DNA from: Candidatus Reidiella endopervernicosa
Lineage (GTDB): Bacteria; Pseudomonadota; Gammaproteobacteria; GCF-013343005
Direction: 5' to 3'
Assembly (NCBI RefSeq): GCF_013343005.1
Contig: NZ_CP054491.1
Coordinates: forward strand, 2,648,501 to 2,712,500
DNA length: 64,000 bases
In this document: piece after piece, positions 2,231-60,751 of the stretch
Layout: each line of letters begins with the position of its first letter
Position numbering within the stretch: position 1 is the first letter of the stretch
Position numbers and translations under genes: made by a program
Notes under the pieces: model-generated
What the model saw: the letters and a program-made list of their open reading frames with translations, nothing else
Told to the model about the DNA's origin: nothing
Database searches by the model: none

Positions 2231-2413
2231 TTAGAACGATTCGGTCTCTTTCTCGCGTTTAATACGCTCGTAGATCTCTTCGCGGTGAACGGCTACATCT
2301 TTAGGTGCGTTAACACCAATTCGGACCTGATTACCCTTAACTCCAAGTACGGTCACAGTAACTTCATCACCAACCATGAGGGTTTCACCAACCCTACGCG
2401 TTAGAATCAGCAT
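2231..2413 (-). CDS. csrA: Carbon storage regulator CsrA
   Basis: Encodes a 60-residue RNA-binding dimer that recognises GGA motifs in mRNA leaders and represses or stabilises them; it is held back by GGA-rich small RNAs. The sequence is a full-length match to the family: [10 protein letters not shown] at the start, [13 protein letters not shown] in the core, and the conserved [10 protein letters not shown] helix, including the RNA-contacting residues L4, R6, R7 and R44. It is preceded by GGAG at a good distance (in CAAGGAGATAAATAATG). It lies downstream of lysC and upstream of tRNA-Ser, as in E. coli and Pseudomonas. A probable CsrA-antagonising small RNA is present at 44219-44365, so target and antagonist are in one window. 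Confidence 0.98.
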
Positions 2414-9340: not shown

Positions 9341-10157
9341 TTACAGACCCCACCACCTCATCACCCGGTACTCCACCCCTTCAGAGTGGGTGACCGATTC
9401 GATCAGAACAAAGCGGTCAACAGACCAGCGGACGCTGACCGCCATGGATAGCGAAGCGAAGGCGGTTAGTCCGCGATAGTCGACGCCGTCTGCATATTCG
9501 TAGTTGAGAGCGCGAGCGGACGACGAAGAAGATGCAGCAGCGGCTTTATGTCGGCGTAGAGTCACTGAGGGAGTTGTGTAGAGCCGCGAAGAGGTGATTA
9601 CGCAACGAACGCAGGACGGTCGGGGCGCCGTAGGCATAAATGGTCGCGTTAAGTTTTTGCTGTTTGCTTGGGCTTGATGCCCAAAACAAACTTTCGCAAA
9701 ATAGCGACTCCCCGAATGGGTGAAACTGGATCGGTTCGATCGGATCACGAATCTTGCGTGCCAGGGTCATATGGGGATGGTAGGGACGCGGGTCGATCTT
9801 ATTGCCACAGGCAGCCAACGCTCTATTCAAAGTCTGAACCAATAACGTGAGTGGCTCAGGCGTAACAGTGCAACCGATCCAGGCGACACGCGCTCGTTGA
9901 AACTGCCCCACCCTGTCCAGCTCCAGCTCAAACGGCGGTGTCTTTACACCATCTGCAGCTGTACAGAGACAATCGATATCATCGAGCGGCACATTACCTA
10001 GAAAAGAGAGCGTGATATGGAGGTTTTCAGATCGGACCTGTTTGCCATGTTCATGCAGCCACCTGCGCCCCTGCTTAAAGAGGAGCGCACGCAACTTAGG
10101 CTCAGGCCAGAGAGCGAAGAAGAGACGCTTGGTTCTATTCGTTGGTGTTGAGCACAT
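9341..10157 (-). pseudogene. thpR: RNA 2',3'-cyclic phosphodiesterase ThpR, interrupted by repeat element
   Basis: Reading left from 10157, the frame gives a 2H-phosphoesterase of the LigT/ThpR family: RLFFALWPEP, first catalytic motif HITLSFLGN, second motif HPHMTLAR. After FHPF the sequence enters repeat copy 2 (9433-9715) and resumes as RWSVDRFVLIESV to a stop at 9341. Removing 9433-9715 leaves 442+92=534 nt, exactly 178 codons and a complete family-length protein of 177 residues. As it stands, translation passes out of frame inside the element and the last ~30 residues are replaced; both catalytic HxT motifs lie before the break. The start overlaps the end of pncC by 23 nt, suggesting coupling. 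Confidence 0.88.
9433..9715 (-). repeat. Interspersed element, copy 2 (subfamily alpha), inside thpR
   Basis: 283 bp, same orientation as the host gene. Left end on the minus strand is TC then GGGGAGTCGC; right end GGCGGTCAGCG. The restored target reads CAT/TCCGCTGG. Marker of subfamily alpha: CTATCGCGGACTAA near the right end. Confidence 0.95.
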
Positions 10158-12757: not shown

Positions 12758-15700
12758 GCCTGTTAAAAATCTATCCCCGATCAGCCTATCTACTGGCGCT
12801 GTTGTTACTGCTCTCTGCAGGAATGGCAGCGTGGCTGGTACAAACACAACACACAAAGAATCTCAGCATGAGCCATGACAACGCTGAGAGAATGATGTCC
12901 TTGATCTCCAGCAGCATTATTACAGAATTACGCAAAGGCAATTATCAGGACATTCCGGTAATCGTTAATAACTGGGAAGCAAAAGCAATAACATCATACT
13001 GCTCGAGGTTAAAAGTAAAACGGATATTTACTGGCACGCCACCAACAAAAGAAAGATTTCGATAACTTCATTCAACTGTCACACAGACAGCCGTACTCCT
13101 ATCAAGGTTTCGCAACAATCAACCTGCACATAGACATGACACCAACCTATCATTTACGGGATGTATTAGCGTATCAGCTTGCGGAATACTGCTGTTATTG
13201 TTTGTTCTAATTGATACCTAACATGGCTCAGCGCGAGTCGAAAAGAGAAAAGCATCCGACTTGGAGAACTAAACATAGAATTACTTAAGAGCGATGCAAA
13301 ATATCGTCGTCTGGTAGGTAATTTACAGGGCATCTGCTCTTTCGTTAAGTGCAAAGGGATCGTTAACTATGTCACCCCATCGATAAAGTCCTTACTGGGG
13401 TACTTGCCGGAGCAGGTATGTGAGCATCGATATGATGACTTTCTCGCTGACATACCCAGCCAGAATAAAGTCAAACAACGCATGGAGGAGACCCTGCACG
13501 GAAAACAACAAACCGTCTTTGAGGCCGAGGTTCAACACAAAGATGGCAGCACGCGAACTTTCGATATCACAGCTGTTCCGATCAATGATGAAAGTGGAAA
13601 AGTCGCCTCAGTAGAGGGTGTAGCGCACGAGATTACCTACAAAAGATGGCAGAGAAGGCACTTCAACGCCATATGGAGGATCAGGGCATTATTGCATCGA
13701 TCCTGCATATTTCACTGGAGAACCTATCGCTCGCAGAAATCCTCTCCCTGAGTCTCAACCTGGTTCTCGACAATCACAGTCTTGGATTGACCCGCAAGGG
13801 TTGCATTTTCCTGGTTGACGATACTAGCCATCAGTTGGTAATGGAGGTTGAACGGGGACTACCTGAGACGCTTATCGATAAGTTCCATAATCTTGAGTTT
13901 GGAAAGCATCTCTGCGGCATTTCAATCTCAGAAGGTACGATCAATTTTTCCAATGAGATTGATGAACTACACTCTATGGCTTACCGGAGCATGACAGATT
14001 TTGGACAATACTGTGTCCCCTGGAAAGCAAAGGTGAAGTGCTGGGCATACTCAGCCTATATGTATCTGAAGATCACTCCCGCACGAAGTCTGTTGAGATG
14101 TTTATTACCGCCGTTGCCGACACCCTTGCCGGTATTATTCGACGCAAGAAAACAGAGGACAAACTCAAACAGGCCGCGACAGTCTTTGAGAGTGCCGCAG
14201 AGGGTATTGTAATCACCGATGAGCAGGCAAGGATTACAGCCGTAAATCAGACGGTTGTTGCGATGACTGGGTACAGCGAGAACGAGATGCTAGGAAAAAC
14301 CCCAGCCTCTGGCGTTCAGAGCACCATGATCGTCACTTTTTCATAATATGTGGGCATCTTGCAGCAGGCCGGACACTGGCGTCCGGGGAGTCGCTATTTT
14401 GCGAAAGTTTGTTTTGGGCATCCAAGCCCAAGCAAACAGCAAAAACTTCACGCGACCGTTTATGCCTGCGGCGCCCCGACCGTCCTGCGTACGTTGCGTA
14501 ATCACCTCTTCGCGGCTCTACACAACTCCCTCAGTGACTCTACGCCGACATAAAGCCGCTGCTGAATCTTCTCCGTCGTTCGCTCGCGCCTCAACTACGA
14601 ATAGGCAGACGGCGTCGACTATCGGGGACTAACCGCCCTCACTTCGCTCTCCATGGCGGTCAGCGGGCGAGATATGGAATCGACGCAAGAACGGTGACAT
14701 CTTTCCATGCTGGCAGACAATTAGCGCGGTCAAGGATGAGGCCGGCAAGGTATCACATTACGTCAGCCTGATTTCAGACATCACCACTATCAAAGAGTCA
14801 CAGGCAAAGGCGGAATACCTTGCACATCACGATCCGTTAACCAAATTACCAAATCGTTTGTTATTTAATGCACGAGTTGATCATGCTATCGAACGCGCAC
14901 ACCGGAAGGGCATCATGTTTTAGTCATATTTCGACCTCGATCGGTTCAAGCACATCAATGACAGTCTGGGCCACCCAGTGGGAGACGAGGTGCTTAAACA
15001 GGTCGCATCCAGGCTTAAGCAACAGGTGCGTGAAGACGACACTATCGCCCGCCTTGGCGGGGATGAGTTCACCTTGCTGGTCGAAGAGATTGCAAACCCG
15101 ACAGATGCGGCACCATTGGCAAAAAAAAACTGGAACAATTTAATGAACCATTTGTTGTGGAAGGCAACATCCTGCATATAACGGCAAGCTTGGGATCAGC
15201 ATCTATCCAGACGATGGACTCGACATGCTTACCCTGGTCAGAAACGCTGATACCGCCATGTATCAGGCAAAAGAGAGGGTAGAAACACCTATCAATTCTA
15301 TACACGCCAGTTTACCGATTCAGCCTCTCAACGTGTTCGCCTTGAATCAAACATTAGAAATGCTTTAAAGAAGAAACAGTTTGTTGTCTATTACCAGCCT
15401 AAATACTCTTTATCAACGGATCGATCGTCGGTGCTGAAGCACTACTGAGATGGCAGCATCCTGAGAACGGCATGATGTCACCGTGCATTTCATTCCTCTG
15501 GCAGAGGAGACACGACTCATCATACCGATTGGCTCCTGGGTACTGCACGAAGCCTGCGCTCAATTTAAATCGATGCTAGAGGATGGACTTCCCTCGGTCA
15601 CATCAGCATCAATGTTGCCGGGCAGCAGATACAGGGCGGAAAGATTGTCGAAACCGTGGCGGAAGTCTTAGCAGAGACGGGGCTGGATCCGCAGTATGTG

Positions 15701-21233: not shown

Positions 21234-27856
<6,623 letters not shown>

Positions 27857-35259: not shown

Positions 35260-36434
35260 TTAGACCAGGTGGCTCGCCTGGGAGACCTCAATACCGAGCA
35301 GCTCAAACGCCTCCTTCAGCCCCTCGGAGAGGGTGGCACGGGTTGAGACCATGGAAAGATCGATATTAAGACTGGTAATAGCACGGGCAATCTCGGGACG
35401 GATACCGGTGAGGATCGCCTTGGCACCCATCAATCCCACTGCACGCACCATCTGAATCAGGTGGTGCGAGACCTGAGAGTCGATCGCCATCACTCCTGTC
35501 ACATCGAGCACCACTACCTTGGCGCGTTCCTTCTCAATACGAGATAGCAGATTCTCCATCACCGTCATGGTCCGCGATGAGTCGAGCGTACCAATAATTG
35601 GCAGGGTCAAAACACCATCCCAGATCTCTGTGATCGGTGTCGAGGTGTGTTTCAGCTCCTCCTGCTGCGCCTTGATGGTCTGCTCTTTAACTTCGAGATA
35701 GATGTGGAAGACATCGAGTACCAGCTGGTTGAAGAGTCGCGCCAGCACCAGCAATACCTCACGCGACTGTTCGAAGGTGTACTCATCACTCTCTTCCAGC
35801 TCCTCAATCAAGACACGCTGTAGCGCCTGCACATAGCGTACGAAGATATCGAGACTGCCACCACGGGCCTGAATCTGGCGGGCAAAGTTGGTAAAGAACT
35901 GCTCCAGGGCGCGAAACTCGGGGCCACGCTGTCCCATCTTCGCCCCCGACTGCAGCCACATCACAAACAGCTCGAGGAACTCGTAGCTGTACTCATGAAT
36001 ATCATCTGTGGAGAGCGTATGACTATCACCAAACAGCGCCTTGCCCTGCTCCTCGATAATCATCGACTGGGGAGTCGCTATTTTTGCGAGAGTTTGTTTT
36101 GGGCATCCAAGCCCAAGCAAACAGCAAAAACTTCACGCGACCGTTTATGCCTACGGCGCCCCGACCGTCCTGCGTACGTTGCGTAATCACCTCTTCGCGG
36201 CTCTACACAACTCCCTCAGTGACTCTACGCCGACATAAAGCCGCTGCTGCATCTTCTCCGTCGTTCGCTCGCGCTCTCAACTACGAATATACAGACGGCG
36301 TCGACTATCGGGGCTAACCGCCTTCGCTTCGCTATCCTTGGCGGTCAGCGGACGTGGCCCATATTCTCCTTTAGCTGCTCGATCAGAATATCGTTGGCTG
36401 ACGCCTCTGCGTTTTTATTCTTTTTGACTGCCAT
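35260..36434 (-). CDS. RsbR-like stressosome protein, interrupted near its N-terminus by a repeat element
   Basis: The ATG at 36434 gives MAVKKNKNAEASANDILIEQ for 28 codons and then enters repeat copy 5 (36067-36350); the rest begins SMIIEEQGKALFG and runs to 35260. Without the element it is 84+807 nt, exactly 297 codons. The N-terminal half is a helical sensor domain (ELFVMWLQSG, FFTNFARQIQARGG, LLVLARLFNQLVLDVF); the C-terminal half is a STAS domain with VVVLDVTGVMAIDSQV. RsbR and RsbS co-assemble into the stressosome. An ATG at 36063 lies four bases from the element edge in the correct frame, so a protein lacking only 29 residues could still be made. The element is antisense to this gene. 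Confidence 0.85.
36067..36350 (+). repeat. Interspersed element, copy 5 (subfamily gamma), antisense inside the rsbR-like gene
   Basis: 284 bp, opposite in direction to the host gene. Left CT then GGGGAGTCGC; right CTTGGCGGTCAGCG. Subfamily gamma marker: CTATCGGGGCTAACC and ATCCTTGG. Restored target ATCGA/GACGTGG. Confidence 0.95.
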
Positions 36435-37480: not shown

Positions 37481-38694
37481 CAGCGGCAGCACTCAACTGT
37501 TCTGCGGCAACGGCAAATTGACCTCGCCCTCGCCGCTTCGCTTCATAGAGTGCTTCGTCGGCACGACCTACCAGGGTATCGATGGTATCGGTTGCCAGAC
37601 ACTCGGCGATACCGATACTGACCTTGCTCTGCATGCCGTCGAGAATCTTCGTTGCGATGCGTTCGGCAATCTCAGTGCCACAGAGCGCCACCACCGCGAA
37701 TTCATCACCCCCCATACGACACGGGATATCAACATGCTCACGTACACTGGCACGCATCACATCGGCCATCCGTTTCAGGTACTCATCACCGTACTGATGA
37801 CCATGGGTATCGTTAATCTGTTTGAAGAAATCGAGATCGAGCAGCAGCAGTGAAACTACCTCTCCCTGGCGCTGGCCACGTAGGAATGCCTCCCGTAGAC
37901 GATCATCGTAGGCACCGCGATTGAGCAGCCCGGTCAAGGCATCGGTCTCCGCCTGTTTGATCGAGGCCTGTAGCTCCTCCTTCTTCTTCTCCAGCACCGC
38001 CTCCATCTCTTTCATCTGGTCGGCAGCGACCTGCATATAGCTCTCAAGCTCATCACTGATCTTCTGGTTACGGCGCATCAGCAGTTCAGGATCTGCCGAT
38101 TCACTCGCCATTCGCAGGTAGTCGATTAAAGAGTGCAGTTCATCGGAGAGTGGTTCGTGGGTCAGCTTGACCACTTCAGAGCGCTCACCCTCCCAGCCAA
38201 GACTGAGATGTAGCTTGTCGATTGTGAGTGTTACTTCGACGCCACCGTCGCTCCTAAACATCGCGTGACGCAACGACTCCAACATCGGTACAAGCGCCGC
38301 CGTGGCAACAAACTGATCACCTTTGAAGGTATCGACCGCTTGCAACACGAATCGCGACAGCCGCATACGATCGGGTTCGACAAGTAGTGACAGGGTTAAT
38401 CTGGGGAGTCGCTATTTTGCGAAAGTTTGTTTTGGGCATCGCCCAAGCAAACAGCAAAACTTCACGCGACCGTTTATGCCTACGGCGCCCCGACCGTCCT
38501 GCGTACGTTGCGTAATCACCTCTTCGCGGCTCTACACAACTCCCTCAGTGACTCTACGCCGACATAAAGCCGCTGCTGCATCTTCTCCGTCGTTCGCTCG
38601 CGCTCTCAACTACGAATATACAGACGGCGTCGACTATCGGGGGCTAACCGCCTTCGCTTCGCTATCCTTGGCGGTCAGCGAGCGATGTTGTCAT
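37473..38694 (-). CDS. Diguanylate cyclase (GGDEF) of the stressosome operon, interrupted at codon 5 by a repeat element
   Basis: Without repeat copy 6 (38401-38680) the gene is 14+928=942 nt, 314 codons, starting MTTSLLTLSLLVEPDRMRLS. An N-terminal domain of about 130 residues without recognised match (GVEVTLTIDKLHLSLGWEG) is followed by a coiled coil (ELESYMQVAADQMKEMEAVL) and a GGDEF domain: DALTGLLNRGAYDDRL, LLDLDFFKQINDTHGHQYGD, CRMGGDEFAVVAL (catalytic motif intact), KVSIGIAE, ADEALYEAKRRGR. It makes c-di-GMP from GTP. In the present sequence the ATG at 38366 (MRLSRF) is an in-frame restart losing only about 15 residues. First gene of the operon; it is plausible that c-di-GMP is the stressosome output. 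Confidence 0.85.
38401..38680 (+). repeat. Interspersed element, copy 6 (subfamily gamma), antisense inside the diguanylate cyclase gene
   Basis: 280 bp, the shortest copy because of a gap in the left hairpin (GGGCATCGCCCAAGC). Left CT then GGGGAGTCGC; right CTTGGCGGTCAGCG. Opposite in direction to the host gene. Confidence 0.95.
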
Positions 38695-39182: not shown

Positions 39183-42113
39183 TTGAACCTACGCTTGCCC
39201 AACGCACCGATCACACTACTGCCGCGCACCGAAAAGGCGCTTAGCGTTACCGCTGAGCGTATTCTTCAGAACCACCATGAACGGCTACCCGACCTGAGTT
39301 CCGTGGTCGTTATCCTGCCCGATCTACAGGCGGCACCGCGGCTGCGACGAGCCCTCCAGCAGGGCGCCGAGATACGTGGGCATAGCGCCCTGCTCGGCCC
39401 AACTATCGAGACCTTGAGTGGCTGGCTAAGTGACACGCCGATCGAGTGTGGTGAAGTTCCAGGGTCAATAGGCCGTGAGTTGATGCTGGTCGAGGCACTG
39501 CGCGAGCACAACAGTTTGTTTGGCACTGCCAGCCCCTGGTTACTCTGCGACTCTCTAATCGAGCTGTTTGATGAGCTGACACTGCAACAGCAGCCGTTGC
39601 CCGATAGTCTGGATACCTTTACCGATCAACTCACCGCAGCCTATGCCTTAACCAAGAGTTCATCATCGCTGGGGCGCGAGGCGAAACTGGTTCACACTCT
39701 CTGGCAAGCGTGGCATGAACAGCACCAGGCCGAAGGGAAGTGTGATGTCAGCCAGGCAAAGCTGCTGCAGATCGCAGCTAAGCTAACTGAAGAGAGTGGC
39801 GACCAGCACCTCTACCTGTGCGGATCAACACAGTTCAAGGCTGCAGAACTCGAATTGATTAAACAGCGACTCTTACAGGGTCAGGCTGATCTAATTCTGC
39901 AGGGTGCCCTCACTGAGGTTCGCTACCACCCCGACGCCACCGTCACCTCACTTTTGAGCCGCTTGAGTGACATCGACAGGGAGAACCGCCCCACGGAGAG
40001 TCCCTTCAGCCAGTTACTCAACACCCTCTATAACCACGGCAGCCTGCCCATCGGCCAGCGTGCTGAGCAGTTTGCTGCATCTTACCCAGAGAGCCCGGTC
40101 ACAGATCGCATTAAGATTGTCGAAGCCAATGGTAGTGAGCAGGAGGCGATAGCGGTCGATATTCAGGTGCGTCGCTGGTTACTGCACGATAAGAGAGAGT
40201 CGATTGCTGTTGTCACCGAAGATCGTCGACTCGCGCGCCGCGTTCGTGCCCTGCTCGAACGTAGTGGCATTACGATTAACGATAGCGCTGGCTGGGCACT
40301 CTCTACCACCAGTGCAGCAGCGGCACTGGAGCGTTGGCTGGAAACGGTCGAAGAGGATTTTGCCCAACAGCCCCTGATCGATCTACTCAAATCCCCTTTT
40401 GTCTTCCCAGAGCAAGCTGAAGCTGAACGACTCGCAACCCTCTACCGACTCGAGCAGGACATTATCCAGCGTGAAAATATCGCTCGAGGACTCGAGCGTT
40501 ACCGTCGTCATCTCCACTACCGTCAACGACGCCTTAACTGGAGCAACGAGATCACCACCTCGATTGAGCAACTGCTTGATCGTCTCGCCGATGCCGCCGG
40601 TCCACTGCTGAAACTGATCGATGGTCAGCGTCATAAACCTGAGCGTTATCTCGAAGCGCTTCAGGAGAGTATGAAACGGCTCGGCATGAGCAGCGCATTT
40701 GACCACGATCTGGCCGGCGCACGTGTCTCGCAGGTGATCGCCACCCTGCTTGCCGCGCTACCGGGACGCCATCTGCCGATGGAGTGGGAGGAGTTTCGTG
40801 TCTGGCTCGGGCGCAGTCTCGAAACACACAACTTCCGTCTACGTGATGGTGCGGCTCCGGTCGAACTGATCAGCCTCGCGCAGAGCACACTTGGTGAGTA
40901 TGACGGCGTGATTATCGCCGGTTGTGACCAGGAGCATCTACCCGGCAGTGGCGGCCATAGTCCCTTTTTTAATGACCAGGTCAGAAGAGAACTGGGACTC
41001 ACCACGCGTCTTGATCGCACCAACGAGCAGTTCCACCACTTCCGTAACCTGCTCGAGGCCGCCCCCGCTATCTGCCTGACACTTAGACGCGAGCAGGATG
41101 GCGAGGAGATCATCCCCAGCCCCTGGCTCGAGAGCCTACGCACCTTCCATCTCAGTGCCTATGACGATGCGCTACTCGACCAGCAACTGATGGCACTGCT
41201 GAATGAACCGCGTAACCAGATGATCCGTTGTGACACCGATGAGTCACCCGCCCCTGTAGAACGGCCTACTCCCCAGCTGCCGCGTGGAATAATGCCGGAG
41301 AGTTTCTCCGCCTCCTCACACCAGCGGTTGATCGACTGCCCCTACCGCTTCTTCGCCGCTGACGGATTACGACTCAAACCGCTGGAGGAGATCCGCGAGG
41401 CGCTTGCCAAGTCCGATTACGGTGAGCGCGTCCATCGCTGCCTGCAGGCCTTCCACGGTGATATTGAGGGACTACCCGGCCCCTATCGTGAAGCCTTTAC
41501 GAAAACTAACCGTCAACAGGCACTCGAGCTGTTGATTGCGATCTCAAACACGGTTTTCGCCAGCGACCTTGAGGACAATTTTCAGCACCGTGGCTGGTTA
41601 CGTCAGTGGCTCTCGACCATTCCCTCCTATATCGACTGGCAGATCGACCACGCCGAGCAGTGGCGTGTAAAGGGTGTCGAACAGAAGGTCGAACAGAGAA
41701 CGATGGGAGGTGTGGCGTTAAATGGTCGATTAGACCGAATCGATCAAGGCAGTGAAGGCCTCGACATCATCGACTACAAGAGCGGTGGCGCACCAAAACA
41801 GATCGATGTGGAGTCGGGCGAGGCGGTACAGCTACCAACCTACGCGATGTTGATGAGTGAACCGGTCAACCGCGTGGAGTACCTGATGCTCGATAGCAGT
41901 CGTGGCACTCGCACTGGTGCCGCACTGGAGGGCGACGATCTCACAGAGTTGGCGCTTGAGAACAGCGAACGTCTCGAGGCACTACAGGGGATGATCCTTG
42001 AAGGTCATCCACTCACCGCCTGGGGTGATAACAAAACCTGCAGTTACTGTGAGATGGATGGCATTTGCAGAAAGGCGGCCTGGAACCATTTTGAGCCAGA
42101 CAGTAGCGACTGA
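39183..42113 (+). CDS. addB: AddB-like PD-(D/E)XK exonuclease subunit
   Basis: 976 residues, partner of the AddA helicase in double-strand-break processing, replacing RecBCD. The N-terminal two thirds resemble an inactivated superfamily I helicase (VVVILPDLQAAPRLRRAL, IAVVTEDRRLARRVRALL). The C-terminus is a PD-(D/E)XK nuclease: GRLDRID, DIIDYKSGGAP, VQLPTYAML. Cysteines in DCPYRFFA (about 718) and CSYCEMDGICRK near the end form the Fe-S cluster pattern of AddB. It starts with TTG eight bases after fdxA; no better start is seen. addA lies 2.5 kb downstream, separated by a truncated sensor gene and a small RNA. Confidence 0.88.
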   Translation: MNLRLPNAPITLLPRTEKALSVTAERILQNHHERLPDLSSVVVILPDLQAAPRLRRALQQGAEIRGHSALLGPTIETLSGWLSDTPIECGEVPGSIGRELMLVEALREHNSLFGTASPWLLCDSLIELFDELTLQQQPLPDSLDTFTDQLTAAYALTKSSSSLGREAKLVHTLWQAWHEQHQAEGKCDVSQAKLLQIAAKLTEESGDQHLYLCGSTQFKAAELELIKQRLLQGQADLILQGALTEVRYHPDATVTSLLSRLSDIDRENRPTESPFSQLLNTLYNHGSLPIGQRAEQFAASYPESPVTDRIKIVEANGSEQEAIAVDIQVRRWLLHDKRESIAVVTEDRRLARRVRALLERSGITINDSAGWALSTTSAAAALERWLETVEEDFAQQPLIDLLKSPFVFPEQAEAERLATLYRLEQDIIQRENIARGLERYRRHLHYRQRRLNWSNEITTSIEQLLDRLADAAGPLLKLIDGQRHKPERYLEALQESMKRLGMSSAFDHDLAGARVSQVIATLLAALPGRHLPMEWEEFRVWLGRSLETHNFRLRDGAAPVELISLAQSTLGEYDGVIIAGCDQEHLPGSGGHSPFFNDQVRRELGLTTRLDRTNEQFHHFRNLLEAAPAICLTLRREQDGEEIIPSPWLESLRTFHLSAYDDALLDQQLMALLNEPRNQMIRCDTDESPAPVERPTPQLPRGIMPESFSASSHQRLIDCPYRFFAADGLRLKPLEEIREALAKSDYGERVHRCLQAFHGDIEGLPGPYREAFTKTNRQQALELLIAISNTVFASDLEDNFQHRGWLRQWLSTIPSYIDWQIDHAEQWRVKGVEQKVEQRTMGGVALNGRLDRIDQGSEGLDIIDYKSGGAPKQIDVESGEAVQLPTYAMLMSEPVNRVEYLMLDSSRGTRTGAALEGDDLTELALENSERLEALQGMILEGHPLTAWGDNKTCSYCEMDGICRKAAWNHFEPDSSD

Positions 42114-42378
42114 TAGTTGAAACAATACCGGTTTATATTCATGAAAAGCTAAGTACGCTACTTTTCAGCATTGAGTAGTGAATCTACTCCAAGAGCGTAA
42201 TCGCATATGCGTAATTTGTTATTTAGGTGTCTGAAAAAGCATGGGTGAGAGTGACGACTTTGAAGGCAAGTCACAACCGATTAAGTGGAATAAAAGCCTG
42301 CTTTTAAAACTGCCATTATTGTTCGCCTTACTATTGGTTACTGTCCTAATATCCACTCAGCTCATTCTCGAAAACATT

Positions 42379-42662
42379 CCGGGGAGTCGCTATTTTTGCG
42401 AAAGTTTGTTTTGGGCATCCAAGCCCAAGCAAACAGCAAAACTTCACGCGACCGTTTATGCCTGCGGCGCCTCGACCGTCCTGCGTTCGTTGCGTAATCA
42501 CCTCTTCGCGGCTCTACACAACTCCCTCAGTGACTCTACGCCGACATAAAGCCGCTGCTGCATCTTCTCCGTCGTTCGCTCGCGCTCTCAACTACGAATA
42601 TACAGACGGCGTCGACTATCGGGGACTAACCGCCCTCACTTCGCTCTCCATGGCGGTCAGCG
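42379..42662 (+). repeat. Interspersed element, copy 7 (subfamily beta), inside the dCache sensor
   Basis: 284 bp, same direction as the host. Left CC then GGGGAGTCGC; right GGCGGTCAGCG. Removing it joins LILENI to VEPTLDKQAD in frame. Restored target AACATT/GTGGAA. Confidence 0.95.
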
Positions 42663-43337
42663 GTGGAACCAACCTTGGACAAACAGGCTGACAACTTGAT
42701 GGAACAGGTCGGCAGCTCAATCGTACTTGAGCTGGAGTCACGCATTGCCCATACCGAAGCACTGACCAAGGCCATCGCCGGTGCCGGTGAGATCCTGCCG
42801 CAAGATGAGAGTGCCCATAAACACTCCCTACTCCACCTCGTAGACCAACCAGGCACCGCCAGTTATGTCGCTGGTGGCGGAGTCTGGCCAGAACCCTACC
42901 TATTTGATGACCATGTAGAGCGCCGAAGTTTTTTCTGGGGTCGTAATGCTGAGGGTAAACTCGATTACTACGAGGACTATAACGACCCAGAAGGGCCCGG
43001 TTATCACCACGAAGAGTGGTACGTACCGGCGAAGATGTTACAACGTGGCGAGGTCTACTGGTCGCGCTCCTATTTCGACCCCTACTCAGGACAAGCGATG
43101 GTGACATGTACCGCGCCTATGTTCCGTGAAGGACGATTTTATGGAGTTAGTACTATTGATCTAAAACTGAAGGGGTTAAATGAACTACTGGAGGAGAAGT
43201 CATCCGTTCTGGGTGGTTATGTCTTTGTGCTGGATCGTTTCGGTGCATTTATCTCATTCCCAGAGGAGAGTATGTTCAAAAAAAGCGTAACCAACGCTGC
43301 GGGTGAAGAGCATGAAGAGCTCCTAAACTACAGTGAT

Positions 43338-43620
43338 CCGGGGAGTCGCTATTTTTGCGAAAGTTTGTTTTGGGCATCAAGCCCAAGCAAACAGCAAAAC
43401 TTAACGCGACCGTTTATGCCTACGGCGCCCCGACCGTCCTGCGTACGTTGCGTAATCACCTCTTCGCGGCTCTACACAACTCCCTCAGTGACTCTACGCC
43501 GACATAAAGCCGCTGCTGCATCTTCTCCGTCGTTCGCTCGCGCTCTCAACTACGAATAGGCAGACGGCGTCGACTATCGGGGACTAACCGCCCTCACTTC
43601 GCTCTCCATGGCGGTCAGCG
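43338..43620 (+). repeat. Interspersed element, copy 8 (subfamily beta), inside the same dCache sensor
   Basis: 283 bp, same direction as the host and as copy 7, 675 bp further on. Left CC then GGGGAGTCGC; right GGCGGTCAGCG. Removing it joins LLNYSD to LAANNAHF in frame. Confidence 0.95.
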
Positions 43621-44218
43621 CTGGCAGCGAATAATGCGCACTTTCAACCTATCGCAAAAACCATCGATCTACTTCAGGCCGATCTTGTTAACAATGCCAT
43701 ACAGACTGGTAATTTTAGCGAGGAGTTAGTCGAATATTTAAGTAAGGAGAGTTATCAGATCTCGACCTCTGATGCCCGTATATTAGCTGCCACCCTGTCT
43801 GACACACGACACGCAGAGGACTCTTCCCCTCTGTTATTGAAGACATTCAGTATCGAAAACGACCTATTGCTTGGCGAGGCGTCCCAGGTTGGAGTGTTCC
43901 ACGTACCTGGTACCTACTGGAAAATTGTAACCGTTGCACCAGAGAGCCGGGGCTTCAATGCCCTTAGCTCAATGCGTCTACCGCTATTCACCGCCGTGGC
44001 CGCCATCACTATCGTACTTGCCATCGGCTTTGTCTTTCTGCTTCGTCTATTTTCCATCCGCCTCAGTGCTTAACCAAGCCGCTTAAAGTGGTTGCGAAAG
44101 AGTAAATCCTAAACATATACACCGTGCGAATCGACAAGAAATAGTTGGAGTCGATCTATTTCGAAGATAACTACTCAGGAGTGAGGCGAATGACCCGTTT
44201 AGTTATCCGTTCAGACAC

Positions 44219-44242
44219 AAAAAAGGCGACCTGTCGGTCGCC
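44219..44242 (-). terminator. Terminator of the RsmZ-like RNA
   Basis: A perfect 7-bp GC-rich stem (GGCGACC/GGTCGCC) with a four-base loop, followed on the minus strand by six T. Four T also follow on the plus strand. Confidence 0.9.
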
Positions 44243-44365
44243 TTTTATCATCCCTGGTGAGCGCCGGTCCCCCCTGCGCTCCGACATCAATCCCGATGTC
44301 GTCCTGAAGTCCTTCTAGCGGCCTACCTTGGCCCACTGCATCTCCGTGATTCCCTGTCCTTGTGA
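44219..44365 (-). ncRNA. Candidate CsrA/RsmA-sequestering small RNA (RsmZ/CsrB-like)
   Basis: The minus strand from about 44365 to the terminator carries nine GGA motifs in about 150 nt (AAGGAC, AGGGAA, ACGGAG, AAGGAC, CAGGAC, CGGGAT, TCGGAG, GGGGAC, AGGGAT). Two are displayed in hairpin loops: GACATC-GGGATT-GATGTC, and GAGCGC/GCGCTC around a G-rich loop ending GGGGGGACCG. The 3' end is an intrinsic terminator with six T. A sigma70-type promoter and a GacA box lie upstream. These are the defining features of CsrB/RsmY/RsmZ RNAs, which bind many CsrA dimers and relieve repression. No credible protein is encoded here. The 5' end is estimated from the promoter. Confidence 0.82.
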
Positions 44366-44371
44366 TAGGTA

Positions 44372-44400
44372 GATTTAAGCATCTTGTGGAATTAGTGCAA
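44372..44400 (-). promoter_or_regulatory. Promoter of the RsmZ-like RNA
   Basis: On the minus strand TTGCAC (44395-44400) and TAAATC (44372-44377) are separated by exactly 17 nt, acceptable sigma70 hexamers. Transcription would start near 44365, just before the first GGA motif. Confidence 0.6.
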
Positions 44401-44549
44401 CCTATGAACACGCCTCAAAACAGCGCATCAATCCGGGACAAGCATGAAGTTTTATTCTGTTTTTACATGGAGTTACACACACACCTACCATTTAACGACT
44501 ACAAACACACACAATATTTAAGGTTCTTTTCGGGCTTATCCTACAGATT

Positions 44550-44567
44550 TGTCAGCTTATGCTTACA
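44550..44567 (-). promoter_or_regulatory. GacA-binding upstream activating sequence
   Basis: On the minus strand TGTAAG-CATAAG-CTGACA matches the GacA box TGTAAG-N6-CTTACA at 11 of 12 positions. It lies roughly 185-200 nt upstream of the predicted start of the small RNA, close to the distance known for rsmZ in Pseudomonas. The gacS/gacA genes are not in the window. It is also close upstream of addA on the other strand. Confidence 0.78.
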
Positions 44568-44630
44568 TGTTAAATCGTGATTAGAGAGATCGCTCTTACT
44601 GTTCTTGAAAAGAGTCGGTATCCTGCCGCT

Positions 44631-47600
44631 ATGGAAACGATCCTTGACGCCATCAATCCCAATGCAAACGCTACTGTCAGCGCCTCCGCCGGCACCGGAA
44701 AAACATGGCTTCTCGTTTCGCGCACCATACGACTTCTACTCGATGGTTACCCCGCAGGTGGCATCCTGGCAGTCACCTTCACCCGTAAGGCGGCCGCTGA
44801 GATGGAGAGTCGCTTGATTGAGCGCCTGCGTGAGTATGTGGATCTCAGCGACTCAGCGCTTGATGACGCTCTCCATATGATCGGCATCAGCACAGATGAA
44901 CAGATCAGAGAGCGGGCCCGCACGCTATACGAAAGGCTGCTCTTTTCTGAACACCCTATCCGCATTACCACCTTCCATGCCTTCTGTCAGGAGATGCTGC
45001 GAAGTTTTCCGCTCGAGGCCGATGTTCCTCCTGGTTTCGAGTTACTCGAATCGAGTGGCTTACTGGAGGATGAGGCGTGGGCAGCCCTCTACGAGGAGGC
45101 GAGTCGCAACCCCGATGCAGCACTTGCCCAGGCCCTCGACAACCTGTTTGAGCAGTGCAACGGTATTAATAGTAGTCACACGGCACTGAACAGCTTTCTT
45201 CAACACCGAGGTGACTGGTGGGCCTATACAGAAGCATGCAAAGACCCGATTGATACCGCCAGACAACGACTCCTCGATCTCCTCCAGATCGACCCAGATC
45301 TGCAGCCACTCGATCAACTCTTTAACCAGCCGACGATGGATGCACTGCAGCACTACACCGAATTACTGGTGATGCACGATACCAAAACCAATCTGAGTGC
45401 AGCAGCAAAGCTTGCTGATATCCGTGATGAAACCAACCCGGTAACTCAACGCCACCAACTACTGTGCGAGGTTCTGCTCACGGCCAAGGGCGAGCCGCGT
45501 GCATGTAAACCGAGCAAGGCACGGGCGAAGAAGATGGGGGAGGATGGCGAGGATCGTTTCATCGCACTCACCACTCAACTGACCCAGCAGCTACTCGCCT
45601 GCAACGACACACTGGCACGCATAAAGAGCTACCGGCTCAGTTCGGCCTGGTATCTTGCCGGTAGTCGACTACTCGATCACTACCAACGACTCAAACGAGA
45701 ACAGCGTCTGCTCGACTTCACCGACCTGGAGTGGAAGAGCTACCAGTTACTCAACAACCATGAGCAGAGCGAGTGGGTTCAGTACAAACTCGATCAACGA
45801 ATCGAACACCTGCTTATCGATGAGTTTCAGGACACCAATCCGACTCAGTGGCAGCTGATCTTGCCACTCCTGCAGGAGATGGCGGCCGGGAGCAGCGAAC
45901 GTGGACGGAGCGTTTTTCTGGTCGGTGATAAAAAACAGTCGATCTACCGTTTTCGTCGGGCCGAGCCACGGTTGATGGAGAGTGCTGCAGAGTGGCTTGA
46001 GCAAAACCTCGCAGCCCACGCCTTTACCATGGATGCATCGCGCCGTTCAGCACCGGCAATCATCAACTGCGTCAACCATATCTTTGAAGAGACCCATCTC
46101 AAGCAGCGCATTCCCTCTTTCAGCAGCCACCAGACTCATCACACCGAGCTCTGGGGACGCGTGGAACTGCTACCACTACCGCAGATCGAACCCCCCGTCG
46201 AAATCGAACGACTCGGTTTGCGTAACCCGCTACTGGCCCCCCGGCCAGAGCAGCTGGCGATACGTCATCTTGAAGAGGGGCGGCAGATCGCCGCACGAAT
46301 TAAACAACTGGTAGAGGAGCAGATACCAGTAGGTGCTAAGGATGAAGCACACCCGCTAGGCCACGGCGATATCCTCATCCTGCTACGCAATCGCACCCAC
46401 ATACACGCCTACGAAGAGGCCTTACGCGAGGCGGAGATTCCCTATATCGGCGATCAACGCGGCACTCTGCTGGAGAGCCTCGAGATCCGCGACATGGTGA
46501 CACTGCTGGAGACGCTGATCACCCCGTTTGGCAACCTCTCTCTAGCCCAGATACTTCGCTCACCGCTGTTTGCCGCCAGTGATGACGATCTGATCACACT
46601 GGCCAGCAGTAACAACTGGATGCAGCAGCTAACAACGCTCGCTCCGACACTCGAACCGGGCACACCACTGGCTCGTGCTCACCACTGGCTCAGTCACTGG
46701 CGAGCACTGGTAGGTCGTCTGCCAGTGCATGATCTGCTCGACCGCATCTATAGTGAAGGCAACGTCATCGCTCGTTATGAGTCGGCCTTTCCGGAGACCC
46801 TACGTCCCCGGGTGCGAGCCAACCTGACCCGTTTTATCGAACTGGCCCTTGAAATCGACAGTGGTCGTTACCCAAGTCTCTCCGCCTTTCTCGCTCGTCT
46901 ACGCTCACTACGAAGCCGCTCCAGTGAGGCACCCGATGAGGCACCTTCGGGTGGAGGAGAGCCACGTGTGCGCCTGATGACTATTCACGGATCAAAAGGA
47001 CTTGAGGCACCGCTGGTGATTCTGGCCGATACAATCAACAGGCCGAGTAGTCGCAACGCCTACCAGCCAATCGTCAACTGGCCAGCGGGTGAAGTCCGTC
47101 CCAGTCAATTTTTGTTATCGGGTAAAAGTGACCGTCTCGACTCGATCTCTAAAACGCTACTCGAGAGTGAATCAGAGGCCGAGCTGCGTGAAGAGGCAAA
47201 CCTGCTCTATGTCGCACTCACCCGAGCGCGTCAGCAACTCCTTGTCTCGGGCACGCCACCGAATAGAGGTGATGATCTGGGTTGGTACGGAATGATCCGT
47301 ACTGCCTTAGAGCCACACGCCGATGTCGATGATGAGGGGCGGTTGATACTGAGCAGCGGAGAGCAGCCAAACCTTGCTAAACCCGGTAGTAACAAACTCT
47401 CACAGAAGTCTGTTTTTGATCCACTCCTCAACCACCCCATACGGTGGACAAACAGTCTGGTTGAGATCGCCCCAAGCAGAGCGACTGCTGCGCGATCCCT
47501 CTCGAGTGATGGCGATGAGGATGGTCGCGATCGCGGTCTATTGATCCATCGAATGTTGGAACTGCTGACTCAGGCTCGCGTAAATAGTGTGGAAGTGAAA

Positions 47601-48002
47601 AACCGGATCTGTAGTGAGTTCGACATGGAACCTCAGGATGAGATTCTGCAACAGAGTTTCGATGAGGCACAGGCGGTCGTTGATGCCGCTGAACACCGTG
47701 CGTTCTTCAATTCACAAAACTACCTGCACGCCTACAGTGAGGCACCGATCAGCTTCAAAGACGATGGAGTGATGGTCTATGGGATTATCGACCGCCTAGT
47801 GGTCACTGAAACGGAAGTGATTGTGATCGACTACAAGAGCCACCGCTCAGCCACCGTTGAGGAAGATAGCCTGGTCGAACACTATCGACCTCAGATCCAC
47901 CTCTACTGCAAAGGGGTTGGCAAACTCTTCCCCGACAAGCGGGTTAGAGGCGGTCTGCTCTTCACCGCCGCTAACCGCTTCAGAGAACTGACACTCGAAT
48001 GA
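44631..48002 (+). CDS. addA: AddA-like UvrD-family helicase/exonuclease
   Basis: About 1,120 residues; ATP-dependent helicase with a C-terminal nuclease, partner of AddB. Walker A is SASAGTGKTWLL near the N-terminus; then AVTFTRKAAAEM, Walker B LLIDEFQDTNPTQW, VGDKKQSIYRFRRAEP, TIHGSKGLEAPLVILAD, LYVALTRARQQL, and nuclease motif VIVIDYKSH with RPQIHLYCKGV at the end. The start is uncertain: the frame opens at GTG 44577, but the ATG at 44631 gives the N-terminal length usual in the family and leaves the GacA box clear of the start; neither has a good ribosome site. Separated from addB by 2.5 kb holding a sensor pseudogene and the small RNA. Confidence 0.9.
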   Translation: METILDAINPNANATVSASAGTGKTWLLVSRTIRLLLDGYPAGGILAVTFTRKAAAEMESRLIERLREYVDLSDSALDDALHMIGISTDEQIRERARTLYERLLFSEHPIRITTFHAFCQEMLRSFPLEADVPPGFELLESSGLLEDEAWAALYEEASRNPDAALAQALDNLFEQCNGINSSHTALNSFLQHRGDWWAYTEACKDPIDTARQRLLDLLQIDPDLQPLDQLFNQPTMDALQHYTELLVMHDTKTNLSAAAKLADIRDETNPVTQRHQLLCEVLLTAKGEPRACKPSKARAKKMGEDGEDRFIALTTQLTQQLLACNDTLARIKSYRLSSAWYLAGSRLLDHYQRLKREQRLLDFTDLEWKSYQLLNNHEQSEWVQYKLDQRIEHLLIDEFQDTNPTQWQLILPLLQEMAAGSSERGRSVFLVGDKKQSIYRFRRAEPRLMESAAEWLEQNLAAHAFTMDASRRSAPAIINCVNHIFEETHLKQRIPSFSSHQTHHTELWGRVELLPLPQIEPPVEIERLGLRNPLLAPRPEQLAIRHLEEGRQIAARIKQLVEEQIPVGAKDEAHPLGHGDILILLRNRTHIHAYEEALREAEIPYIGDQRGTLLESLEIRDMVTLLETLITPFGNLSLAQILRSPLFAASDDDLITLASSNNWMQQLTTLAPTLEPGTPLARAHHWLSHWRALVGRLPVHDLLDRIYSEGNVIARYESAFPETLRPRVRANLTRFIELALEIDSGRYPSLSAFLARLRSLRSRSSEAPDEAPSGGGEPRVRLMTIHGSKGLEAPLVILADTINRPSSRNAYQPIVNWPAGEVRPSQFLLSGKSDRLDSISKTLLESESEAELREEANLLYVALTRARQQLLVSGTPPNRGDDLGWYGMIRTALEPHADVDDEGRLILSSGEQPNLAKPGSNKLSQKSVFDPLLNHPIRWTNSLVEIAPSRATAARSLSSDGDEDGRDRGLLIHRMLELLTQARVNSVEVKNRICSEFDMEPQDEILQQSFDEAQAVVDAAEHRAFFNSQNYLHAYSEAPISFKDDGVMVYGIIDRLVVTETEVIVIDYKSHRSATVEEDSLVEHYRPQIHLYCKGVGKLFPDKRVRGGLLFTAANRFRELTLE

Positions 48003-58624: not shown

Positions 58625-60751
58625 GTGAGCAGTAACGATTCATCCATCTATGCGATACCCGTCCAGCACGCGCCCGACGAGCTGAGCTTTGACCTGCGCC
58701 CTAAGAAGGTTAAAGAGTGGTTCGATGCACTACCGATGGCCAATCTGGATGAGGTCACACGGTTGGTTTCCGAAGCGCTCAGCGATATCAGCACCCTGCA
58801 GATCAAACCCAGTGAACGGTACAAACTGCTCGAGCAGTTTCACCCGCTTATTCAGATAATTTCTGAAACACTACAGCGAAAATTCGTCGGCAGGCCGCTA
58901 CCGCTGAGTGATGTCAGTAACCGTGCTTACTCACTGTTACAGGAGATCAATATCCTGATGGCCGTGGGTTATAAGACAGTCATCGTTCAGACGCTAACCC
59001 AGACCGGTAAACGCATCGACATATCGATGATTACCTACGCAACCCATCGCAACATGCGCTACCTCAGCACCATCCTGATGCATGCCTACCAGATATACGG
59101 CAGCTACCCAACCAATACCTGGAAAGATATCCACCAGCTCTACAGCTTTGCCACTCAGAACAAGATCAGCGAAACCCCAGTTAAAGATCAGATGCTCAAA
59201 CGCAGAACCACCTGCACCGTTGAGGACATGATTAAACGCACCATGCTTCTTTCACTCGCCTGCCCCTACCGTCTCCATCAGGGGGAGGTCGACCGTGTAT
59301 ATCAGATGCTTGAACAGTGGGTTAGAAACACAAAGATTGGGGGTACTAGCGATGCCGTGGAAGAGAATGGTATTTTTGTCACCCAACTCGATCTCGATGC
59401 TCCACCAACTTACCGCGCTCTACACAAGGCGAGTGGCGACCCAAGTCAGATTCGGATTCTCGATACCACCGAACTAGCAGACGATCTGCAACTTCAGGTA
59501 ACCGAGAACGGAGAGGACAACCGCGTGGTTATCGGTGAGACCAAACTCAGCCACGACCTGCTACGTCGTCTGGCTCTTGCCTGGGGTATCGTACCCAAAC
59601 GGGGTGAGAACCGACTCAACATCAGCACCAACGTTGAGATCACTAGCGGCATCAATGCAATCTACTACCACATCAGTGGCATCAATCCTGACAAAAATCA
59701 TCGTTATGGATTTGGTGCTCCACCACCACCTTCACCGACCAAAGATGAGCCGATAGGAATCCCGAGTTCGTCCATCCCTTCCGATTTAACCGTCATCGAT
59801 TTTGAGATGAGCAGTGAAGAGCGTGAAAAGATCGGGCTTCCGGCTGGCCTGCGCCCCGACATTGACGAAAGCAGTGATTCAACTCCGGCCGCGCCTGCAG
59901 CAGATAGTCCCTATCCGACTCAGAACTGGAATATGGTCAACGTGAGTGCAGGAGGCTACTGCCTACTCTGGAATGATGAACACGCCTCTACCGCCAAGGT
60001 TGGGGAATTGATCGGCATCCACAATACCGGTGAAGAGGACATCCACTATTGGGGCATCGGCGTCGTGCGATGGATGCGCTGTGAAGAGAGCGAAGGGCTC
60101 AAGGTAGGCGTTCAGATGCTCTCCCCCAGCGTCATTTCTCTGTCGGGGAGTCGCTATTTTTGCGGAAGCTTGTTTTGGGCATCCAAGCCCAAGCAAACAG
60201 CAAAAACTTCACGCGACCGTTTATGCCTGCGGCGCCCCGACCGTCCTGCGTTCGTTGCGTAATCACCTCTTCGCGGCTCTACACAACTCCCTCAGTGACT
60301 CTACGCCGACATAAAGCCGCTGCTGCATCTTCTTCGTCGTTCGCTCGCGCTCTCAACTACGAATAGGCAGACGGCGTCGACTATCGCGGACTAACCGCCT
60401 TCGCTTCGCTATCCATGGCGGTCAGCGCTTGTCGAGCTTGGCGAGGAGCTGACCGACCCAACGGGGCACTGGTTACTGATTCCCGAAAACCCTGCAAGTG
60501 AAATAGCCTCTTCGCTCATATTGCCCGCCTATCCACTCAGAGCTGGACAGAAGGTGATGATCAAACAGCAGGACAAAGATCTCTATGTCGAATTGGCTGA
60601 GATGACTGAGAATACCGGCTCATTTGCCCAGTACCATTTCAATCCGCTCGGCACATCTGCACAACCCAAGAGCAAACGAAACGGCAACGAAAACAGCTCG
60701 CCAAAACAGCAACAGAACAACGGTGAAGCGTTAGACTGGAAGCTCATCTAG
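58625..60751 (+). pseudogene. Conserved protein with PilZ-like C-terminal domain, interrupted by a repeat element
   Basis: Without copy 9 (60143-60427) the frame is 1518+324 nt, exactly 614 codons. The N-terminal 300 residues are helical (FDALPMANLDEVTRLVSEAL, NRAYSLLQEINILMAVGYK, MRYLSTILMHAYQIYGSYP); a Pro/Ser linker (about 375-435) follows; the C-terminal part reads WNMVNVSAGGYCLLWNDE, KVGELIGIHN, YWGIGVVRWM, KVGVQMLSPSVISL and, after the element, LVELGEELTD. The NVSAGG and VGVVRW-like pattern resembles a PilZ domain, though no RxxxR is evident. As read, the protein ends inside the element and loses about 107 residues. It starts GTG. It lies directly upstream of fimX on the same strand, which suggests a role in c-di-GMP-controlled surface behaviour. 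No firm family name. Confidence 0.75.
60143..60427 (+). repeat. Interspersed element, copy 9 (subfamily alpha), inside the PilZ-like gene
   Basis: 285 bp, same direction as the host. Left TC then GGGGAGTCGC; right CATGGCGGTCAGCG. Subfamily alpha marker CTATCGCGGACTAA. Removing it joins VISL to LVELGEE in frame. Confidence 0.95.

Follow-up and report, generated by a model that had tools for sequence, protein, structure and literature searches.

What kind of element occupies the minus strand just upstream of addA in the window, the 64-kb stretch of DNA analysed here? With a probability of roughly 0.9, we read it as encoding a small RNA of the Csr/Rsm type that would sequester CsrA and stand under BarA/UvrY (GacS/GacA) control. 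Of the readings considered, this one fits the sequence best by a wide margin: many unrelated genomes whose element sequences can hardly be aligned have an element of the same build in the equivalent position, and the UvrY box, with a third half-site resembling the one at E. coli csrB, is kept at the csrB distance.

The predicted RNA (Table 1) runs from an inferred 5' end to a 3' end set by its terminator. The first G of each of its nine GGA motifs lies at 44359, 44353, 44345, 44312, 44304, 44293, 44282, 44270 and 44253 on the minus strand, and five of the nine are ANGGA motifs. No 150-nt segment of the window, whichever strand is read, holds more GGA than this one, and the whole-RNA fold reaches -56.6 kcal/mol (z = -4.3 versus shuffles). 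The initial annotation had named nine GGA in about 150 nt, two hairpins exposing GGA in their loops, and a clean terminator; the motifs and the terminator are present, and the fold recovers both hairpins. Taken singly, such features are indecisive, since nine or more GGA turn up in 500 of 20,000 shuffled versions of it (p ~0.025). GGA in perfect hairpin loops of the window element alone number 2 versus 1.57 expected, which is not significant. The parts are weak one by one but not weak in combination. Under a mechanical composite test that asks for a terminator preceded by at least six GGA within 150 nt, the element at 44366-44219 is the only one to pass in 128 kb of window.

Table 1. Features discussed in the text, with positions numbered along the window.
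Feature	Position	Strand	Basis or remark
Csr/Rsm-type small RNA (predicted, 148 nt)	44219..44366	-	GGA motifs, fold, terminator, addA-linked equivalents
Hairpin CGACAUCG-GGAU-UGAUGUCG, GGA in loop, likely CsrA site	44282..44301	-	Fold
Hairpin GAGCGC-A-GG-GGGGA-CC-G-GCGCUC, GGA in loop, likely CsrA site	44259..44281	-	Fold
Intrinsic terminator AAAAGGCGACC-GACA-GGTCGCCTTTT plus T run, 11 pairs	44221..44246	-	
Candidate -10, TTAAAT (4/6, spacing 16) or TAAATC (3/6, spacing 17)	44373..44378	-	Direct reading
Candidate -35, TTGCAC (3/6)	44395..44400	-	Direct reading
Third half-site TGTAGG, 4 bp after inverted repeat	44540..44545	-	Completes tripartite box, 18/18
UvrY/GacA inverted repeat TGTAAGCATAAGCTGACA (predicted)	44550..44567	-	Centre -192 from predicted 5' end
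addA, divergent neighbour, GTG ORF	44577..48002	+	NCBIfam addA_alphas 616 bits, below cut-off 861; homologs
addB	39183..42113	+	NCBIfam addB_alphas 211 bits, below cut-off 486
csrA, predicted target protein	2231..2413	-	NCBIfam CsrA 116.5 bits, cut-off 73
~283-bp repeat, copies 1-5	1333-1616, 9433-9714, 14383-14665, 24924-25206, 36065-36350		
~283-bp repeat, copies 6-9	38403-38681, 42379-42662, 43338-43620, 60144-60427		

A 66-aa ORF (44411-44211) also spans the element, which could thus be a short coding gene whose GGA motifs resemble ribosome-binding sites. However, the start of this ORF precedes the predicted 5' end, and its frame continues across the terminator hairpin; the equivalent elements described below, ~107-321 nt long, vary widely in length and sequence among lineages. 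We find a coding gene hardly credible.

The small RNA had also been assigned a promoter with 17-nt spacing. TTGCAC-N17-TAAATC is indeed there, but both hexamers match consensus at three of six positions, no better than chance, and a consensus scan did not pick them. The TGTAAG-N6-CTGACA box claimed farther upstream does lie at 44567-44550, with its centre 192 nt before the predicted 5' end; nowhere else does the 3.45-Mb genome match TGTAAGN6CTKACA exactly. To this we add the TGTAGG half-site at 44545-44540, absent from the initial annotation, which makes the box tripartite. In Escherichia coli csrB, a UvrY inverted repeat centred at -182 is likewise joined by an extra TGTAGG half-site, across a 5-nt spacer (PMC4682653) in contrast to 4 nt in the window box; with that spacer, the csrB box scores 17/18 on the tripartite pattern.

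The full pattern, TGTARG-N6-CYKAYA-N4-TGTARG, was derived by reading loci. Class-wide, exact copies occur in 9 of 369 genomes, the window copy being the sole exact one in its own genome, and the reversed control pattern in none of the 369. Four of the nine exact boxes (those of the window, L026, L105 and L106) precede a GGA-rich RNA with a terminator, two of them away from addA, and the box can therefore be said to predict the RNA; the other five have no such RNA downstream. No GGA-rich RNA was found downstream of the other tripartite-box sites in the window's own genome. The predicted RNAs of L105 and L106, at loci other than addA, are clearly of Csr type, with a radA-like gene downstream of the one in L105. 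In L104, an exact tripartite box directly precedes a vgrG-like gene (type VI secretion system; identity judged by eye). A possible second GGA-rich RNA with a strong terminator was seen at ~1545-1760 on the plus strand of L004 (G000:C1 ~209.3 kb); this candidate has 6 GGA in ~210 nt, and its one-mismatch UvrY box sits close to the RNA, not at -190.

Homologs of addA, ~50% identical, served to locate the equivalent site in other genomes. At four complete loci (L011-L014), addA has on its upstream side, in divergent orientation, a GGA-rich element with a terminator and the box TGTAGG-N6-CCTATA. Among 369 gammaproteobacterial genomes, the element stands upstream of addA in ~18 of the 66 that bear addA, across 12 families, a count made partly by eye in which the L086 and L093 cases are weak and L014 and L035 represent one genome; three further MAG contigs have the same arrangement upstream of addA. 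What these loci share is a GGA-rich RNA, a terminator and usually a box 100-203 nt upstream, all divergent from addA. About two thirds of addA-bearing genomes are without the element, in many cases because addB abuts addA. Between addA and addB of L026 there are two tandem GGA-rich RNAs with one box each.

On the element's strand (94 kb), the composite test picked out 20 elements upstream of addA, spread over 18 of the 67 regions; the other strand (94 kb) gave none, and neither did the rest of the same addA loci (275 kb). One of the 18 regions is L042, which we read as GGA-containing repeats and left out of the genome count. Strict boxes follow the same distribution, with 10 upstream of addA on the element's strand, none in the 275 kb of remaining sequence and none for the reversed control. 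Graded by score, 13 elements reach 15-18 of 18 for the tripartite box, where shuffles average ~11.6: 18/18 in the window, L011, L012 and L026; 17/18 in L013, L014, L026b and L029; 16/18 in L046 and L048; and 15/18 in L032, L053 and L086. L090 has a single, perfect palindrome, and the elements of L025, L045, L047, L050, L068, L081 and L093 lack a convincing box.

These distributions bear on the proposal that there is no RNA gene here, the box serving addA and the GGA-rich stretch being due to chance or to the 3' region of a convergent gene. The true start of addA may be an ATG at ~44631, because homology begins at about residue 12-27, and the box would then stand ~64-81 bp upstream of this likely start; a weak promoter and a GGA count of only p ~0.025 when taken alone would also suit the proposal. 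However, GGA-rich elements with terminators occur on one strand only, 20 versus 0, and at L105 and L106 the box points to a GGA-rich RNA away from addA as well. An absent RNA gene is, in our judgment, highly improbable.

Conservation among these elements lies in architecture. Over 22 elements, stems of five or more pairs carry 47 of 194 GGA in their loops; in 500 shuffles that kept GGA in place, the corresponding number averaged 12.7 and never exceeded 25. Most elements end in the same 3' order, namely a GGA-loop hairpin, then GGA or GGGA, then the terminator. MAFFT left the variable loops of these 3' modules unaligned, and RNAalifold returned five spurious pairs only. A DNA search of 56 relatives with the window element gave no match outside its own genome, because the RNA diverges too fast; a second match within that genome (27.8 kb, L002) proved to be only a terminator resembling this one, after fba.

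The GGA motifs would be incidental if the RNA were Hfq-dependent or acted by base pairing in some other way, and the element does have weak Rfam similarity to the Hfq RNAs STnc250 (25.1 bits) and MicX (19.3 bits). Both scores are far below the cut-offs (42 and 75 bits) and mostly terminator-based, however, and repeated loop GGA kept across families with unalignable sequence would be unexpected for such an RNA. We judge this explanation very unlikely and retain the CsrA sponge.

As to which sponge, the initial annotation had called the element an RsmZ/CsrB-type small RNA and named the covariance models of RsmY, RsmZ and CsrB as one check. The functional kind stands; the family likeness does not. 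None of these models matched at its gathering cut-off in the window, and CsrB, RsmY and PrrB_RsmZ gave no match around the element even at E up to 1. Because none reaches the cut-off, the element is not RsmZ, RsmY or CsrB in the sense of an Rfam family. An Rfam search of 17 relative loci returned tRNAs only. Among the elements, L068 alone gives an RsmZ match, a sub-threshold one at the equivalent place (25.7 of 44 bits). In the window's own genome, the best RF00166 matches fall away from the element, the very best (L016) lying inside a coiled-coil coding gene. Since no Rfam family matches it, the element would belong to a separate, undescribed family, and it is apparently an undescribed addition to the Csr/Rsm sponge-RNA class. 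We propose an addA-linked Csr RNA family, defined by GGA richness, a terminator and divergence from addA, all of which the window element has. Kulkarni and colleagues reportedly predicted Csr RNAs genome-wide in 2006; our literature search, which covered a minor part of the subscription literature, found no paper on Csr RNAs linked to addA or addB.

The protein side of a Csr circuit is encoded in the same genome. csrA, whose product is a typical CsrA, lies in the window where the initial annotation had placed it, with a score above its cut-off (Table 1), and UvrY is found at 2.02 Mb as an equivalog (305.9 bits over a cut-off of 280) with uvrC downstream. The best BarA candidate adjoins pdxJ-recO-era. 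Its kinase ORF and REC-HPT ORF are separated by a 283-bp repeat, which interrupts barA/gacS between the pseudo-receiver and REC-HPT parts (L064 3158-6136; G000:C1 ~2278157-2281135), and the activating signal may therefore be weaker in this strain. The split gene has an AAGGA shortly before a GTG, which could restart translation.

Box, GGA hairpins, terminator and addA-side position are thus features of the locus that many lineages keep, in a genome with csrA and uvrY. From them we infer transcription, UvrY binding, CsrA binding and a regulatory outcome, as follows. Phosphorylated UvrY (GacA) would bind the tripartite box at 44567-44540 and turn on the weak promoter ~190 bp downstream. The RNA would present several GGA, in hairpin loops and in unpaired segments, with one CsrA dimer held by every two of them. 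CsrA would leave its mRNA targets because the GGA pairs of an abundant RNA hold its dimers.

The element had been placed between addB and addA, and addA does adjoin it; on the other flank, toward addB, the nearest ORF is instead a broken one for a cache-type sensor (42241-44058), interrupted by two copies of the ~283-bp interspersed repeat that also splits barA (CGGGGAGTCGCTATTTTTGCG...CTCTCCATGGCGGTCAGCG). The window holds nine copies, 94-99% identical. A genome scan gave 364 first-look candidates, 40 of which were scored and yielded 41 matches, all at least 95% identical. It is conceivable, and we think unlikely, that the addA-linked Csr RNA locus is ancient in deep-branching gammaproteobacteria and that a single UvrY box there serves both the sponge RNA and addA; if true, the shared box would tie the Csr lifestyle switch to recombinational repair.

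Csr/Rsm RNAs control a global switch between growth and stationary lifestyles, and family models miss them because their sequences diverge so fast. A conserved neighbour, addA, together with the tripartite UvrY box can detect Csr RNAs across families in which Rfam finds none. For many poorly studied gammaproteobacteria, this would provide the sponge RNA that has been missing from their Csr circuit.

Pseudomonas RsmZ and RsmY are RNAs of ~110-150 nt with several GGA motifs, under GacA control. Pseudomonas Rsm RNAs are described as having several GGA motifs and a palindromic upstream sequence and as sequestering RsmA (PMC2375449). The window element differs from RsmZ (RF00166, PrrB_RsmZ) and RsmY in having no match at the Rfam cut-off and resembles them in size and in its several GGA motifs. 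E. coli CsrC, also a CsrA-sponge RNA with an upstream UvrY site, has a weaker box (best 15/18), is 246 nt long with 14 GGA and lies between yihA and yihI. E. coli CsrB is larger, with 22 GGA in 369 nt versus 9 in 148 nt, and adjoins syd/yqcC rather than addA; its Rfam model does not match the window element. With CsrB, the window element nevertheless shares multiple loop GGA, an intrinsic terminator, a UvrY repeat ~180-190 bp upstream and the extra TGTAGG.
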